Origin: Bacillus sp. REN16
GTDB taxonomy: Bacteria; Bacillota; Bacilli; Bacillales; Bacillaceae_L
NCBI RefSeq assembly: GCF_020731355.1
Contig: NZ_JAJFZK010000008.1
Span: forward strand, 62,001-126,000
Direction: 5' to 3'
Length of the DNA stretch: 64,000 bases
Shown: piece by piece, positions 5,534 through 54,545 of the stretch
Position numbering within the stretch: the stretch's first letter is position 1
Layout: each line of letters begins with the position of its first letter
Program-made: the position numbers and the translations under genes
The notes under the pieces: generated by a model
What the model saw: the letters and a program-made list of their open reading frames with translations, nothing else
Told to the model about the DNA's origin: nothing
Databases searched by the model: none

Positions 5534-5638
5534 ATCTTCGCGACCTGTTTACAAGTATTGCTAATGAGTACGGGTTGACGATATACAGGTATTATAGTAG
5601 TATAGAAAATAATTAAATAAGACCTCACTTTTATTAGT

Positions 5639-5880
5639 GGGGTAGAGGCGCGATATTTAACAGTCTTTAGTGGAGTTTGAGAAGCAATGATGCTAAGGAG
5701 AAGGAAATGTCGCCGAAGTTTGTAATAATCTCGGTATTACATGCTGGGTCTGCAGTTAAGAGCTGCAGGACTGTCTCAATAAACACCTAGTTTATTGAGT
5801 TGTGCTATCTCATTTGGGATAAAAGAGAGGACTTAAGGCATCGATACAGCGACCTGAGTATATCTCAGGTCTTTTTTTGT
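5639..5880 (+). promoter_or_regulatory. Lysine riboswitch (L box) with expression platform
   Basis: The conserved L-box blocks occur in order: GTAGAGGCGCGA near 5643-5654, AAGGAAATGTCGCCGAAG at 5701-5718, GCTGGGTCTGCAG at 5753-5765, and a GACTGTCTCAATAAA arm that pairs with TTTATTGAG before GTGCTATCTC near 5815. The P1 strands GGTAG and CTATC are both present. An intrinsic terminator at 5851-5878 follows, so lysine binding would stop transcription of the downstream ABC transporter genes. The arrangement matches the B. subtilis lysC leader. Confidence 0.9.
5851..5878 (+). terminator. Riboswitch-controlled terminator
   Basis: An 8-bp stem GACCTGAG / CTCAGGTC with a 5-nt loop and seven T residues, 31 nt before the transporter's first gene. 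It is the OFF-state hairpin of the lysine riboswitch. Confidence 0.85.
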
Positions 5881-50378: not shown

Positions 50379-52313
50379 CTAGTCTTCCAACCATTGACCT
50401 TCTACATATTTGCGGTTCATGTCTTTTTTTATTTTGCGATATTCCTTACTTTTGAAGATGATGTCAAAATCGTAATCAGGCGGATAGAGCTCCTCAGCTG
50501 CAATTTTTAACTCGAGTCTCTTATAGTTAATCGTTCTTTTTTCTCCTTTAATTTGCACTATATAATCTCCATGATCATTTGGACCTTTGTACACAATGCC
50601 GGTTTCACCTGATGAAGGGAGGAGAACGTTGTCTCCCTGGTTGTAGATTGTTACCTTAGATACAGGTTGTTCTTGTTTCCTTTTTCCAACATTGCTCCGT
50701 GCATATTTATTTACAATGACTTGCTTTTGATAGGAAGGCGATTGTAATGTTTCTTGAGTCATGTTTTGATGGAAATCCTTATGCTCTTGATATGCCTTAT
50801 GATGTGCGCGTTCAAGCAGTGAAGGATGCATCCCGAGTTTTGCTGCGATATCGAAGGCTTGGCTTTGTCCGCTCTTTCCGAGTAATAGTCTATATGTTGG
50901 TTGTAAAGTATGGATATCAAATTCCATTGAACCATTTATAAAGCCTTCCGTTTCATCTGCAAATTTCTTCATTTCACTGTAATGGGTCGTCGCAAATAAG
51001 GTAGCGCCTTTTTCATATAGCTGCTCCAAAATGACAATAGCGAGGGCCATTCCTTCCCGTGGGTCAGTACCGGAACCTAGTTCATCAATTAACACAAGCG
51101 ATGCATCATTTGTCGCTTGTAAAATGTCAATAATATTCACCATCCGGGAGCTAAACGTGCTTAAGTTTTGCTCAATGCTTTGACCATCTCCAATATCGAC
51201 AAAGATATGTTGGAAGATGGCAATTTCACTTCCTTTTCCGGCCGGGATTGGGAGACCCGATTGAGCCATCAATGTTAAGAGCCCCACCGTTTTTAATGTA
51301 ACTGTTTTTCCGCCAGTATTTGGTCCAGTAATCACAAGAGCACGTTCCTTTTCTCCAATCGGAATGGTGAGTGGAACAGCCTTGTTTCCTAGCATCGGAT
51401 GGCGTGCGTCCTTAAGATCAATCCTGAACTCCTCGTTGATCGTTGGGATATCTGCCTGTATCATTTGACTGTATTTCGCTTTGGCAAAGAGAACATCGTA
51501 ATGATGCATGGTTTCAACGGCAACCTGGATGACTGGTTCATAAGAAAGAAACAGCTGGGTTAGTTCATATAAAATTCGCTCAACCTCTGTTTCTTCAGCG
51601 ATTTTAATAAGCTCAATATCCTCCTGAAGTAACCCTAATTCCACAGGCTCGATAAAAAGGGTGGAGCCAGAAGATGAAGTATCTAATACTGAGCCTTGAA
51701 TCTTTTTCCGATATTCTTTTTTCACGGCCAGAACATATCGACCAGAACGTTCAGTGACATTCGTTTCTTGCAGGTACGGAGAAATCCTTCCGCTTTTCAC
51801 TAAGGACTGTGCTTTATCTTTTAATTTCTCCTGCCCGATAGCAAGCTGTCTTCGCAAATAGTTCAGGTCACTTGAAGCATAATCATCCACTTGGCCATTT
51901 CGTAAACAGCGGCTAATTTCGGCTTCCAGTTGTGATACATCCCCAACCGATGAAGCATACATGCTTACCATCGGACCGGCAAATTCCTTGTCTTTCATGA
52001 ATTGTTTTAATTTTTGGCAGTGGTCTAGGAACGAGACAATCTGAGTCAATTGGTCGACTTTTAGCGCCATGCCTTTTTTTGCTTGTGTGATGTAATATCC
52101 GATTTGATCTAAAGAGTGAATCGGTATACTTCCGCTAATTTTTATGATGTTCATTGCTTCTGAAATTTCATGTAAAGAATGCTCGATTTTCTTTTTGTTT
52201 TGTGTTGGTCTTAACGATAGAAGTGTTTCTTTTCCTCTGTTTGTTCTAGCGAATTCTGAGATTTCGTTCAAAATTTGGTAATAGCCTAATGCTTCCATTG
52301 TTTGAGTATTCAA
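50379..52313 (-). CDS. MutS2-family ATPase lacking the Smr nuclease domain
   Basis: 644 residues. Residues 1-300 form the MutS2 lever/clamp region, Walker A is GPNTGGKTVTLKT near 329, Walker B LVLIDELGSGTDPREG near 411 and TTHYSEM follows. A KOW-like beta domain lies at about 555-600 (GDNVLLPSSGETGIVYKGP). Full MutS2 is about 785 residues and ends in an Smr endonuclease; here the protein stops after a charged tail and no Smr motif is present. MutS2 splits collided ribosomes in B. subtilis, so a ribosome-directed role is plausible. TTG 52313 has AGGAGG at 7 nt; the first ATG is too far. The long leader upstream is annotated separately. Confidence 0.82.
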   Translation of the reverse strand: MNTQTMEALGYYQILNEISEFARTNRGKETLLSLRPTQNKKKIEHSLHEISEAMNIIKISGSIPIHSLDQIGYYITQAKKGMALKVDQLTQIVSFLDHCQKLKQFMKDKEFAGPMVSMYASSVGDVSQLEAEISRCLRNGQVDDYASSDLNYLRRQLAIGQEKLKDKAQSLVKSGRISPYLQETNVTERSGRYVLAVKKEYRKKIQGSVLDTSSSGSTLFIEPVELGLLQEDIELIKIAEETEVERILYELTQLFLSYEPVIQVAVETMHHYDVLFAKAKYSQMIQADIPTINEEFRIDLKDARHPMLGNKAVPLTIPIGEKERALVITGPNTGGKTVTLKTVGLLTLMAQSGLPIPAGKGSEIAIFQHIFVDIGDGQSIEQNLSTFSSRMVNIIDILQATNDASLVLIDELGSGTDPREGMALAIVILEQLYEKGATLFATTHYSEMKKFADETEGFINGSMEFDIHTLQPTYRLLLGKSGQSQAFDIAAKLGMHPSLLERAHHKAYQEHKDFHQNMTQETLQSPSYQKQVIVNKYARSNVGKRKQEQPVSKVTIYNQGDNVLLPSSGETGIVYKGPNDHGDYIVQIKGEKRTINYKRLELKIAAEELYPPDYDFDIIFKSKEYRKIKKDMNRKYVEGQWLED

Positions 52314-52374
52314 TGGTAATCCTCCTTTTTATATATGAAAAGTAATGCATGAGGACTTGTTCACGGGCTGGTTC

Positions 52375-52413
52375 TAACAAAAAAGCCGCCATGAACAAAG
52401 CGCTCATGACGGC
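52375..52413 (-). terminator. Leader terminator before the MutS2-like gene
   Basis: On the minus strand GCCGTCATGA pairs with TCATGGCGGC (one U-G pair) around a 9-nt loop, followed by seven T. It ends 62 nt before the MutS2-like start and has no T run in the other direction. Confidence 0.8.
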
Positions 52414-52598
52414 AGAAGATAGACCTCGGGCTTAGAATGCCTGGTTTTCTAAACACAAAAAAACCATGACAAACATGCCATAGCAGGATCTATTTTTCAT
52501 AGCTATGATGCGTGTTCTTAACTTTCTAAAAGAAGCCATAGTGAAATAAACATAGCAATTGCTACGTTTTTGCTTCTTCCAGCTATCCAATTATGGAT

Positions 52599-52622
52599 TT
52601 AGTTAAGAACCACCGATAACAT
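52599..52622 (-). CDS. Candidate leader peptide of the MutS2-like gene
   Basis: ATG 52622 follows AAAGGGG by 9 nt and encodes MLSVVLN then stop. An alternative overlapping frame from ATG 52630 reads MSLCYRWFLTKSIIG but starts only 1 nt after the ribosome site. Either frame overlaps the first arm of the main leader stem, so a ribosome paused there would change the fold. Confidence 0.45.
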   Translation of the reverse strand: MLSVVLN

Positions 52623-52667
52623 AAACTCATACCCCTTTAAATAAGGAATTATTTTACTTCCACTTTC

Positions 52668-52697
52668 TTTATATCCTATGCTCGTATTAGAAGTCAA
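52668..52697 (-). promoter_or_regulatory. Promoter of the MutS2-like leader
   Basis: On the minus strand TTGACT (52697-52692) and TATAAA (52673-52668) are spaced by 18 nt, a good SigA promoter. Confidence 0.65.
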
Positions 52698-52771: not shown

Positions 52772-53650
52772 ATGAGAATCAGAACTATATTATTCCAGTT
52801 ATGGAGCCTCACCTTTTTACTGATATTGGGGACGTTGCCATTGGTTGTTTTTAGTGGTAAGGATAAGGTGATTTTTCAAATAGAGAGGATTCCGAAAGAA
52901 ATCATTCCATTCCTAGAGGGTCTCTTTGACGGTAGTTCCTATTATTATTTGGATGGAGAGAGGGAACTGAATTTTTTTCATATTGTCGGAGGTTATTTCC
53001 TTTCATCACTGATCTATTTATTGATTGCCGGAGTGTTTGTGATTGTTCTATCGATTATTTTTGGTATTTGGTTTCGGAGAAGAAGTGAGAAGGGATTACA
53101 TCCCATAATCGGTTTTATTGGATTAATTCCAGATTTTGTTCTGGTGTTCTTACTTCAGCTTCTTGTGATTTATATTTATGAAACAACCGGTTGGAAAACT
53201 GTCAGAGTAGCATCATCAAATATGGACGAACCTGCAATTGTACTGCCTTTGATTACTCTGTTCATTCTTCCTTTTGTCTATTTGGTTAGGTCTTTACGTG
53301 ATAAATCCTCCGACGTATTAACAGAAGATTATATTCGAACAGCTTTATCGAAAGGTTTTCGTAAAAGATATATCTATCTGTATCATGTGACCCCTAACGT
53401 CATTCCCTTTTTAAAAGCTGATCTTCATAAAGTTGTTTCGATTATGATAGGAAATCTGTTCATTATTGAATATCTCTATAATTATAAAGGGCTAACATCC
53501 ATGCTATTTCCGATGCGATTCGAATACCAATATAATTTGTTCATCCTATGTTTTCTATCATTTTTTATCTTATATATTACAGTTTATTTCACTATGAAGC
53601 TAATCGTGATCTTGATTGAGAGGACACTAAAACATGCGCACTCGTTATAA
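52772..53650 (+). CDS. Opp/Dpp-type ABC transporter permease (OppB-like)
   Basis: 292 residues with about six membrane segments. The N-terminal segment and C-terminal BPD_transp_1 block resemble OppB/DppB; the coupling loop reads TEDYIRTALSKGFRKRYIYLYHVTPNVIP. It overlaps the next permease gene by 17 nt. No ATPase or binding-protein gene is adjacent, so the pair must borrow these elsewhere or have another role. It is divergent from the MutS2-like transcript. Confidence 0.8.
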   Translation: MRIRTILFQLWSLTFLLILGTLPLVVFSGKDKVIFQIERIPKEIIPFLEGLFDGSSYYYLDGERELNFFHIVGGYFLSSLIYLLIAGVFVIVLSIIFGIWFRRRSEKGLHPIIGFIGLIPDFVLVFLLQLLVIYIYETTGWKTVRVASSNMDEPAIVLPLITLFILPFVYLVRSLRDKSSDVLTEDYIRTALSKGFRKRYIYLYHVTPNVIPFLKADLHKVVSIMIGNLFIIEYLYNYKGLTSMLFPMRFEYQYNLFILCFLSFFILYITVYFTMKLIVILIERTLKHAHSL

Positions 53651-54545
53651 TATAAGTCTAATCATTGGGTCACTGCTACTCCTTTTGTTTGTTGTGCTGG
53701 GCTTGTTTGGTCCATTGTTTGCACCGTATGACGAGGATTATTCGAAGAAAATCAAATATGTACAAACAGACGAAGGGGAGCAGCTTCGCGCAGCACCGTT
53801 CCCGCCTTCAAAGGAACACGTATTTGGTACGGATAAATGGGGATATGATATTTTAACGTTAATGCTTTATGGGGCAAAGTATACAGTGTTTGCATCACTA
53901 GCAGTAGCCATTTGTCGGGTAATCATTGGTGGGTTCTTCGGGATGTATCATGCTTTACAAAAAAAGGAGCATCGAAGGACACCGAGATTCACATTATTAA
54001 GCGGGATTCCACCATTTCTAATCATCTATTTTGTAATGGTTGGGATTAATATTCAGTCCTCAGTAGGAATACGATCGTTGGTATTGTTTCAGTGTGTGTT
54101 GATGATTATTCTTGGAATTCCCGGAGTCTATCAGGTTGTATTTGAAAAAACGGTTGAAATTCGGGAGAGTCCGTTTGTGTTAGCATCTCAAACTGTTGGC
54201 GGCAATACATTTCATATTGTAAAAGAGCATATTTTTCCTACATTAAAAGGGAACCTTCTGCTTATATCGGTCAATGAGGTTATTCACGTCTTAAATTTAA
54301 TCGGTCAATTAGCGATATTTAATTTGTTCTTTGGAGGAACTGAAATGCAGCTCTCTCCAACAATATATCTCTCGATTACGAACGAATGGGCTGGATTAAT
54401 TGGCCAATCCCGGCTCACATTTTATTCTGCAAAATGGATTATCGGGTTTCCGTTGTTAGGATATTTATTATTCCTGTTTTCGCTATACCTTCTTGCCCAT
54501 GGGTTAAAGGAAAGTCATAGAAATAAATATCAGACGTATGTTTAG
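53634..54545 (+). CDS. Opp/Dpp-type ABC transporter permease (OppC-like)
   Basis: 303 residues. The N-terminus matches OppC (GLFGPLFAPYDEDYSKK, then EHVFGTDKWGYDILTLMLYGAKYT), followed by five further membrane segments and a coupling loop SPFVLASQTVGGNTFHIVKEHIFP. Translationally coupled to the OppB-like gene. Substrate unknown. Confidence 0.8.
   Translation: MRTRYNISLIIGSLLLLLFVVLGLFGPLFAPYDEDYSKKIKYVQTDEGEQLRAAPFPPSKEHVFGTDKWGYDILTLMLYGAKYTVFASLAVAICRVIIGGFFGMYHALQKKEHRRTPRFTLLSGIPPFLIIYFVMVGINIQSSVGIRSLVLFQCVLMIILGIPGVYQVVFEKTVEIRESPFVLASQTVGGNTFHIVKEHIFPTLKGNLLLISVNEVIHVLNLIGQLAIFNLFFGGTEMQLSPTIYLSITNEWAGLIGQSRLTFYSAKWIIGFPLLGYLLFLFSLYLLAHGLKESHRNKYQTYV

Follow-up and report, generated by a model that had tools for sequence, protein, structure and literature searches.

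Ribosome-mediated transcription attenuators have so far been described gene by gene, for erm, vmlR, msrD, hflXr and tet(M). Tn916 is described as being under transcription attenuation that is partly relieved by tetracycline and other translation inhibitors (PMC9154091), attenuation is also stated for Tn916 or tetM in PMC5418344, and genes for ABC-F proteins are presented as commonly controlled by stalling on an upstream open reading frame (uORF; PMC10201436). For msrDL, the account in PMC10314930 has the erythromycin-bound ribosome trapped at the UAA stop codon with release blocked, and the same trapping is suggested for toiL (PMC10314930, PMC12121999). Bacillus subtilis MutS2, in turn, is reported to split collided ribosomes; a ΔmutS2 strain is described as hypersensitive to chloramphenicol, tetracycline and erythromycin, the ATPase as essential, and Smr and KOW mutants as only modestly sensitive to erythromycin (PMC10897456). 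Here we analyze a 64,000-nucleotide stretch of Bacillus sp. REN16 (contig NZ_JAJFZK010000008.1, positions 62,001–126,000; hereafter the window, whose numbering is used below), in which a gene for a MutS2 paralogue lacking the Smr domain (50379–52313; TTG start, 644 amino acids) is preceded by a structured leader; the gene and all leader features lie on the minus strand. Our sequence comparisons make it probable that this leader is a ribosome-mediated attenuator of the antibiotic-response kind, and we propose that the gene encodes an inducible ribosome-splitting or rescue ATPase working without Smr.

The leader carries a uORF of seven codons, ATGTTATCGGTGGTTCTTAACTAA (MLSVVLN*, 52599–52622), conserved in length and in its [VI]LN* ending and placed behind the Shine–Dalgarno sequence AAGGGG (52632–52637), with a purine-rich run similarly spaced in the other leaders listed. 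Matches from a protein search of 299 genomes of the order were ranked by score, and both MutS2 clades considered here fall within the matches listed. Upstream DNA was read for all 95 orthologues of the window clade (44–100% identity; those of genomes G014 and G132 partial), and 92 have a uORF of exactly seven codons of the form M/V-x-x-x-[VI]-L-N*, 87 ending in VLN* and 5 in ILN*, with 85 ATG and 7 GTG starts. The orthologue in G276 has MLSVVLD* in this place, and in that of G229 only the GTTCTTAACTAA...GTTAAGAA pair was observed, by pattern. Residues 2–4 are highly variable (LSV, LGV, SVV, SVN, KVV, EKV, QGV, YLV, LLA and others) in a survey of 158 rows that includes nine antisense look-alikes (MISVVLN*, MISAVLN*), which were excluded from the counts of terminators, antiterminators and downstream genes. 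The resulting table of 149 leaders contains some genes twice, and a recount uses 136 distinct leaders. The invariance of GTTCTTAACTAA is meaningful only in sets selected by protein or by model, because the other leaders were found by exact pattern, and selection of that kind inflates invariance.

The end of the uORF also forms one strand of a long-range pairing, P1, in which its last codons, GTTCTTAACT, pair with AGTTAAGAAC located 66–115 nucleotides past the stop codon where this was measured. In the window, the 5′ strand (region 1, 52599–52610) covers the last four codons including the stop, and the 3′ strand (region 2, 52514–52523) doubles with its 3′ part in the antiterminator. Of 18 leaders that were folded, most have a single hairpin or a pair of them inside P1, which is almost invariant within Bacilli. 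In an alignment of 54 rows reaching across the phylum, nine of them further members found with the covariance model R1 described below, 97.6% of P1 cells are paired, and two-sided changes occur at 4 pairs in 6 cells (about four independent events), a level that none of 500 shuffles reached and that compares with at most two two-sided changed pairs in a slid control. Further variants, GTTTTTAAC/GTTAAAAAC in G118 and GTGTTTTTTAACTA/TAGTTAAAAAACAC in G1010, were found after that count.

The competing structure is an antiterminator (52517–52502 with 52484–52471), in which GAAC of region 2 and its 3′ flank, ACGCATCATAGC (52502–52513), form base pairs with terminator 1 along its 5′ arm and loop. Among 28 representatives, drawn from the 121 of 149 rows with a terminator at the right distance, cognate duplexes had a mean of −8.87 kcal/mol versus −7.63 kcal/mol for swapped ones (5 of 5000 permutations; 14 of 5000 with the flank alone). 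Covariation, which the initial annotation had proposed to look for in the leader pairings, was found in P1 and in the antiterminator. The particular antiterminating pair named in the initial annotation, 52580–52573 with 52418–52411, did not hold up: the window and three relatives can form 7 of its 8 pairs, three other relatives 6 and the five more distant leaders 5, and its 5′ strand sits in a hairpin of the repressed fold.

Two terminators follow, GCTATGGCATGTTTGTCATGGTTTTTTT (terminator 1, 52457–52484) and GCCGTCATGAGCGCTTTGTTCATGGCGGCTTTTTT (terminator 2, 52379–52413), the latter aligned in relatives. A terminator-like hairpin of −12 kcal/mol or lower was present in 136 of 136 distinct leaders, 105 of which had two or more; when each leader was given one dinucleotide shuffle, 22 of 136 had any hairpin, none had two and a single one reached −12 kcal/mol. 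A generic terminator scan of 3 kb, taken alone, was near chance (4 sites versus a shuffle mean of 2.5, standard deviation 1.4). Between regions 1 and 2 lies TTATTT (52544–52549), directly 3′ of a hairpin, which fits TTNTTT, a NusG pause motif in B. subtilis that is described as required for tight vmlR control (PMC9226507, PMC12288461). Against 200 dinucleotide shuffles, TTNTTT occurred at this place in 113 of 136 distinct leaders (shuffle mean 61, maximum 76), and TTNTTT followed by a TATG-like tetramer in 66 (mean 7.3, maximum 16), which suggests that RNA polymerase may pause here.

The remainder of the leader agrees in large part with what the initial annotation had read from the sequence. 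The leader in which it saw nested stems is much more structured than chance, the minimum free energy being −109.4 kcal/mol compared to −80.9 ± 5.5 kcal/mol for shuffled sequences (z = −5.2; 0 of 100 shuffles as low), and where it noted a strong terminator, two terminators were found. Twelve leaders of close relatives can be aligned from promoter through start codon. In all 12 the −35 element TTGAC of the proposed good promoter (TTGACT ... TATAAA, 18-nucleotide spacer, 52668–52697) is identical, but a generic promoter scan did not list it; of the two tiny frames suggested, MLSVVLN is the conserved one, and the start of the other, MSLCYRW, is confined to the 7 leaders nearest to the window. Just past the uORF stop, a hairpin P2, ATCCATAATTGGAT (52585–52598), contains most of an AATTnnATA motif, which is conserved 3–15 nucleotides past the stop throughout Bacilli and recurs in the tet(M) leader, hairpin or not. 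The paralogue has its own Shine–Dalgarno sequence, AGGAGG (52321–52326). Two divergent Opp-type ABC permease genes begin just past the leader promoter (52772–54545, plus strand), and elsewhere in the window there is a lysine riboswitch aptamer (Rfam RF00168, 105.5 bits; 5635–5815, plus strand).

Covariance models of the leader also found it before genes other than that of the paralogue. E-values of the two models, R1 and R2, are approximate, and any search that covered over 40 genomes ran with the stricter filters of Infernal. At E ≤ 0.01, R1 had sites in 12 of 299 genomes of the phylum, which on reading every site preceded 7 MutS2 paralogues, 3 ABC-F genes, 2 ABC exporters and no Tet(M) gene. 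R2 had sites in 21 of 398 Bacillota genomes, 10 of them members of its training set, and all 21 sites read gave 11 MutS2 paralogues, 4 ABC-F genes, 4 ABC exporters and 2 Tet(M) genes; the 11 sites outside training comprised 6, 1, 2 and 2 of these, respectively. The window leader, which is in training, scores 82.0 bits with R2, and the tet(M) leaders, which are not, score 44.0 and 44.3 bits. Three full-length ABC-F proteins (463–503 bits) and a fourth of partial sequence (428 bits) exceed the NCBIfam ribosome-protection cut-off of 380; Tet(M), from a partial frame, reaches 1049.7 bits, under the whole-protein cut-off of 1420. One ABC exporter was scanned and fell below every specific-family cut-off, the other three being assigned by near-identical sequence.

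In searches with an exact leader pattern, 89 of 299 genomes from the order had a match, as did 53 of 398 from the class; chance as the source was rejected, the reversed control pattern matching 1 genome, the same one, in each search. The leader pattern was not found at any of 44 loci comprising full-length MutS2 (17), second-clade MutS2 (20) and canonical BpsA (7), within 700–1500 upstream bases per locus and fewer at contig ends, and R2 at E ≤ 1, run on 4 of the 17 full-length MutS2 loci and on all 7 canonical BpsA loci, had no match in any of them. Two pattern matches in viral contigs, one within an open reading frame and one without a start codon, were ascribed to chance, and a phage origin was rejected; anti-phage defence was likewise set aside, with two marginal PADLOC matches only. 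Since the leader has the design found before known resistance genes, the paralogue is probably made when drugs stall ribosomes. The proposal of the initial annotation that a stalled leader ribosome switches on the Smr-less MutS2 is thus supported by comparison, because the uORF is conserved, P1 and the antiterminator covary, and the same leader class stands before ABC-F, ABC-exporter and Tet(M) genes.

The protein itself is a MutS2-type ATPase, as had been proposed. The MutS2 profile TIGR01069 matches it with 618.8 bits (cut-off 400) over residues 3–522 only, giving a MutS2 core with ATPase and without MutS domains I and II, and the sole Pfam match at E ≤ 0.001 is MutS_V. A search for a missed Smr domain (PF01713) found none by Pfam in the paralogue or in four relatives, whereas the same genome also encodes a full-length MutS2 in which Pfam detects both Smr and the MutS2-associated SH3 domain. 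In place of Smr, an alignment of 16 family members shows a tail, ELYPxDYDxDI...RK.VEG, and an ELYPxDYD-type tail also occurs in relatives from other classes (loci L298 and L299). The KOW-like domain of the initial annotation, which would answer to the KOW/SH3 domain of MutS2 that binds uS10, has a possible counterpart: an AlphaFold2 model (mean predicted local distance difference test score, pLDDT, 80.6; predicted template modelling score 0.66) has the MutS2 core, a five-strand barrel at residues 562–604 (pLDDT ~82) that is consistent with an SH3/KOW-like fold, and a helical tail, but the Pfam KOW/MSSS model (PF20297) does not match. Plasmid records matching the paralogue numbered 60, 9 of them over at least 80% of the protein, with a top identity of 55.6%; leaders were read for three (L160–L162). 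One of these, WP_233812027.1 (L160), a paralogue of Smr-less length, carries the public annotation 'endonuclease MutS2'.

These features bear on where the paralogue acts. It might work on DNA, in recombination or repair, with the attenuator merely coupling it to general stress; the ATPase core has kinship with MutS as well, and older literature places MutS2 in recombination. We nevertheless regard a DNA role as unlikely, given that the best solved Foldseek matches are MutS2 chains, including that of the collided-disome complex 7qv3 (E = 2.1e-44), and that the leader is shared with ribosome-protection genes. Compared to B. subtilis MutS2 (7qv3, 8qpp; PMC10897456), the paralogue has the same ATPase/lever/clamp core (sequence score 416 bits; the structural match has 40% identity), and it differs in having a short conserved ELYPxDYD tail where the former carries Smr.

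A second set of downstream genes raises a different question. Among 53 distinct leaders in a non-random batch of fetched loci (L151–L212), 37 precede a MutS2 paralogue, 14 a gene of the BpsA type, that is, of a branched-polyamine synthase (PF01861, E = 2.5e-44), and 2 other sequences, namely a GNAT gene and a gene in decay. Of 151 genomes searched for PF01861, 12 had a match over the cut-off; the five short-type BpsA genes, of which one is a fragment, all stand behind the leader, three of them immediately and two following a MutS2 paralogue directly, and in G324 (L295) paralogue and BpsA-type gene form an intact pair 4 nucleotides apart behind one leader. Within the order, R2 also found the leader before a gene for an S-adenosylmethionine methyltransferase (G017 and G063; L291/L292) and, at 37.4 bits and without a clear uORF, before one for an alpha/beta hydrolase (G087, L294). 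The GNAT acetyltransferase gene stands behind the leader at L151 (G001), and the leader persists before broken or decayed genes at L152 (G026), L131/L157 (G014), L293 (G118) and L153 (G023).

From such neighbours it could be argued that the uORF senses a metabolite such as a polyamine through arrest of the nascent peptide at the stop codon, with MutS2 and BpsA answering polyamine or ionic stress. The 14 BpsA-type genes of the batch, the intact MutS2–BpsA pair and the acetyltransferase would fit a sensor of this kind, which we still hold to be distinctly doubtful: it does not explain the ABC-F, ABC-exporter and Tet(M) genes behind the leader class in other Bacillota, and canonical BpsA loci lack the leader (0 of 7).

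Induction by ribosome-targeting drugs or other translation stress remains our preferred reading of the leader, and we propose that it would operate as follows. By default, the seven-codon uORF would be translated fast, P1 would form with region 2, and transcription would end at terminator 1, with terminator 2 as a second barrier. A drug or other translation stress would stall the ribosome within the uORF, in all likelihood over V-L-N-stop, leaving region 1 masked; region 2 and its 3′ flank would then be free to capture the 5′ arm of terminator 1, so that transcription reached the gene. A pause of RNA polymerase at TTATTT would synchronize it with the ribosome, and the product would be an inducible ATPase that splits or rescues ribosomes as B. 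subtilis MutS2 does, yet lacks Smr. Folding of the window leader is compatible with such a course: unmasked, it forms P1 and terminator 1, and with region 1 masked and the 3′ arm of the terminator absent the antiterminator forms (−11.6 versus −10.0 kcal/mol for terminator 1).

Several observations weigh against this picture. When the terminator is complete, the equilibrium minimum of the window leader again contains terminator 1 even with region 1 masked, and the antiterminator can partly form in the presence of P1; the switch must therefore be kinetic, in which it would resemble other attenuators. The antiterminator result is a statistical effect, the cognate partner ranking first in only 2 of 28 cases (4 of 28 with the flank alone), from which it follows that families share motifs. 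The orthologue in G205 has no such uORF in the fetched stretch and matches R2 weakly (25.8 bits), PF20297 is unmatched in the paralogue, and neither BpsA nor the single GNAT, methyltransferase and hydrolase genes count among the classical resistance genes. In Bacilli, moreover, GTTCTTAAC is almost unchanging at the nucleotide level, so that peptide sensing and plain RNA pairing are inseparable by comparison there. In distant members the peptide differs (MIKGVLK*, MRIVFFN*, MSASVQI*, MKKVFLTNN*), which speaks against an arrest peptide of strictly fixed sequence; the fixed VLN* within Bacilli would favour a peptide effect, and the varied endings elsewhere do not.

The strong nucleotide conservation, including AATTnnATA past the stop codon, might alternatively mean that the RNA itself senses, as a riboswitch or protein-binding leader, and that the uORF is incidental. 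We find this very improbable, as the start codon (ATG, GTG or TTG), Shine–Dalgarno sequence and frame are kept, P1 lies inside the uORF, and no Rfam covariance model matches the leader at its cut-off, so that a known riboswitch family was not recovered; the four matches below cut-off, to models of an enterobacterial small RNA, a small nucleolar RNA, a microRNA and the ClpQY promoter, were rejected. The least credible reading, an amino-acid starvation attenuator in which a shortage of charged tRNAs slows ribosomes at the codons for Val, Leu and Asn, would suit uORFs rich in Val and Leu but is opposed by the other residues of distant members (MRQGILK*, MRIVFFN*) and by downstream genes, none of which resembles Val, Leu or Asn biosynthesis.

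A second clade of MutS2 proteins, 37–41% identical to the window paralogue, has frames of 632–668 amino acids and is judged Smr-less by that length. Its genes have a seven-codon uORF of their own (MSGVVSK*, VSAVGSK*, VSAVESN*, MSGVGIN*), identified by Shine–Dalgarno sequence and a length rule in 18 of 20 loci (L025, L130 and L132–L149; L143 has no uORF and that of L145 is spurious), with a terminator-like hairpin downstream in 17 of 18, at a distance of 231–256 nucleotides in 15 of these. At E ≤ 1, R2 gave weak matches of 17–28 bits in 5 of 8 loci scanned, and the leader of this clade seems either to be independent or to have diverged very far.

Taken together with the reported attenuation of tet(M) and ABC-F genes, the trapping at msrDL and the role of B. 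subtilis MutS2, these results make a drug- or stress-induced extra ribosome splitter the most likely reading of the locus. The evidence is about evenly balanced on a broader proposal, namely that a single Bacillota attenuator family, with a seven-codon uORF usually ending V-L-N-stop and closing P1, is common to Tet(M), ABC-F proteins, ABC exporters, Smr-less MutS2 and a branched-polyamine synthase and so defines a ribosome-protection regulon, in which MutS2-type splitting, aided by branched polyamines, would itself be a drug-induced resistance and the second clade a parallel case. A leader family spanning several gene types could allow uncharacterized genes that answer translation-blocking drugs to be predicted from sequence alone; here it suggests that Smr-less MutS2 is the inducible counterpart to a housekeeping disome splitter, with the branched-polyamine synthase as a possible partner.

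Among known systems, the tet(M) attenuator is laid out like the window leader, with a seven-codon uORF (MRQGILK*) inside P1 (GGTATTCTTAAA/TTTAAGAATACC), AATTTGATA and a terminator downstream (L261, 1480–1790), although its uORF ends in ILK* rather than in the VLN* of the window class. The published tet(M) leader peptide is orf12, which probably corresponds to a frame overlapping the terminator. Plasmid records matching the tet(M) leader with the gene start number 879; the match covers at least 80% of the query in 815 and has 95% identity or more in 621. In the vmlR and cplR leaders as described (PMC9226507, PMC10201436), the uORF likewise lies within an anti-antiterminator, and vmlR shares the UUAUUU NusG motif and has a uORF that begins AUGAUUAAC and ends UAA; the reported uORFs, MIN (vmlR), MK[L/Q] (vmlR2), MR[I/M] (cplR) and MAGN (lsaA), are, unlike those of the window class, of three to four codons, and in the same accounts they are proposed to stall at initiation or early. 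The msrDL peptide MYLIFM* (PMC10314930) is another very short hydrophobic uORF ending in UAA, comparable to MYLVVLN* at three loci here, but it has six codons and its stalled ribosome is described as covering half of the terminator itself. A further known system is hflXr/rli80 of Listeria (PMC6310831), reported as an inducible paralogue of a splitting factor behind a uORF, anti-antiterminator, antiterminator and terminator; its uORF has 14 codons with an RLR motif, and its product is HflX, not MutS2. On the reading preferred here, the MutS2 paralogue would be a parallel to hflXr.

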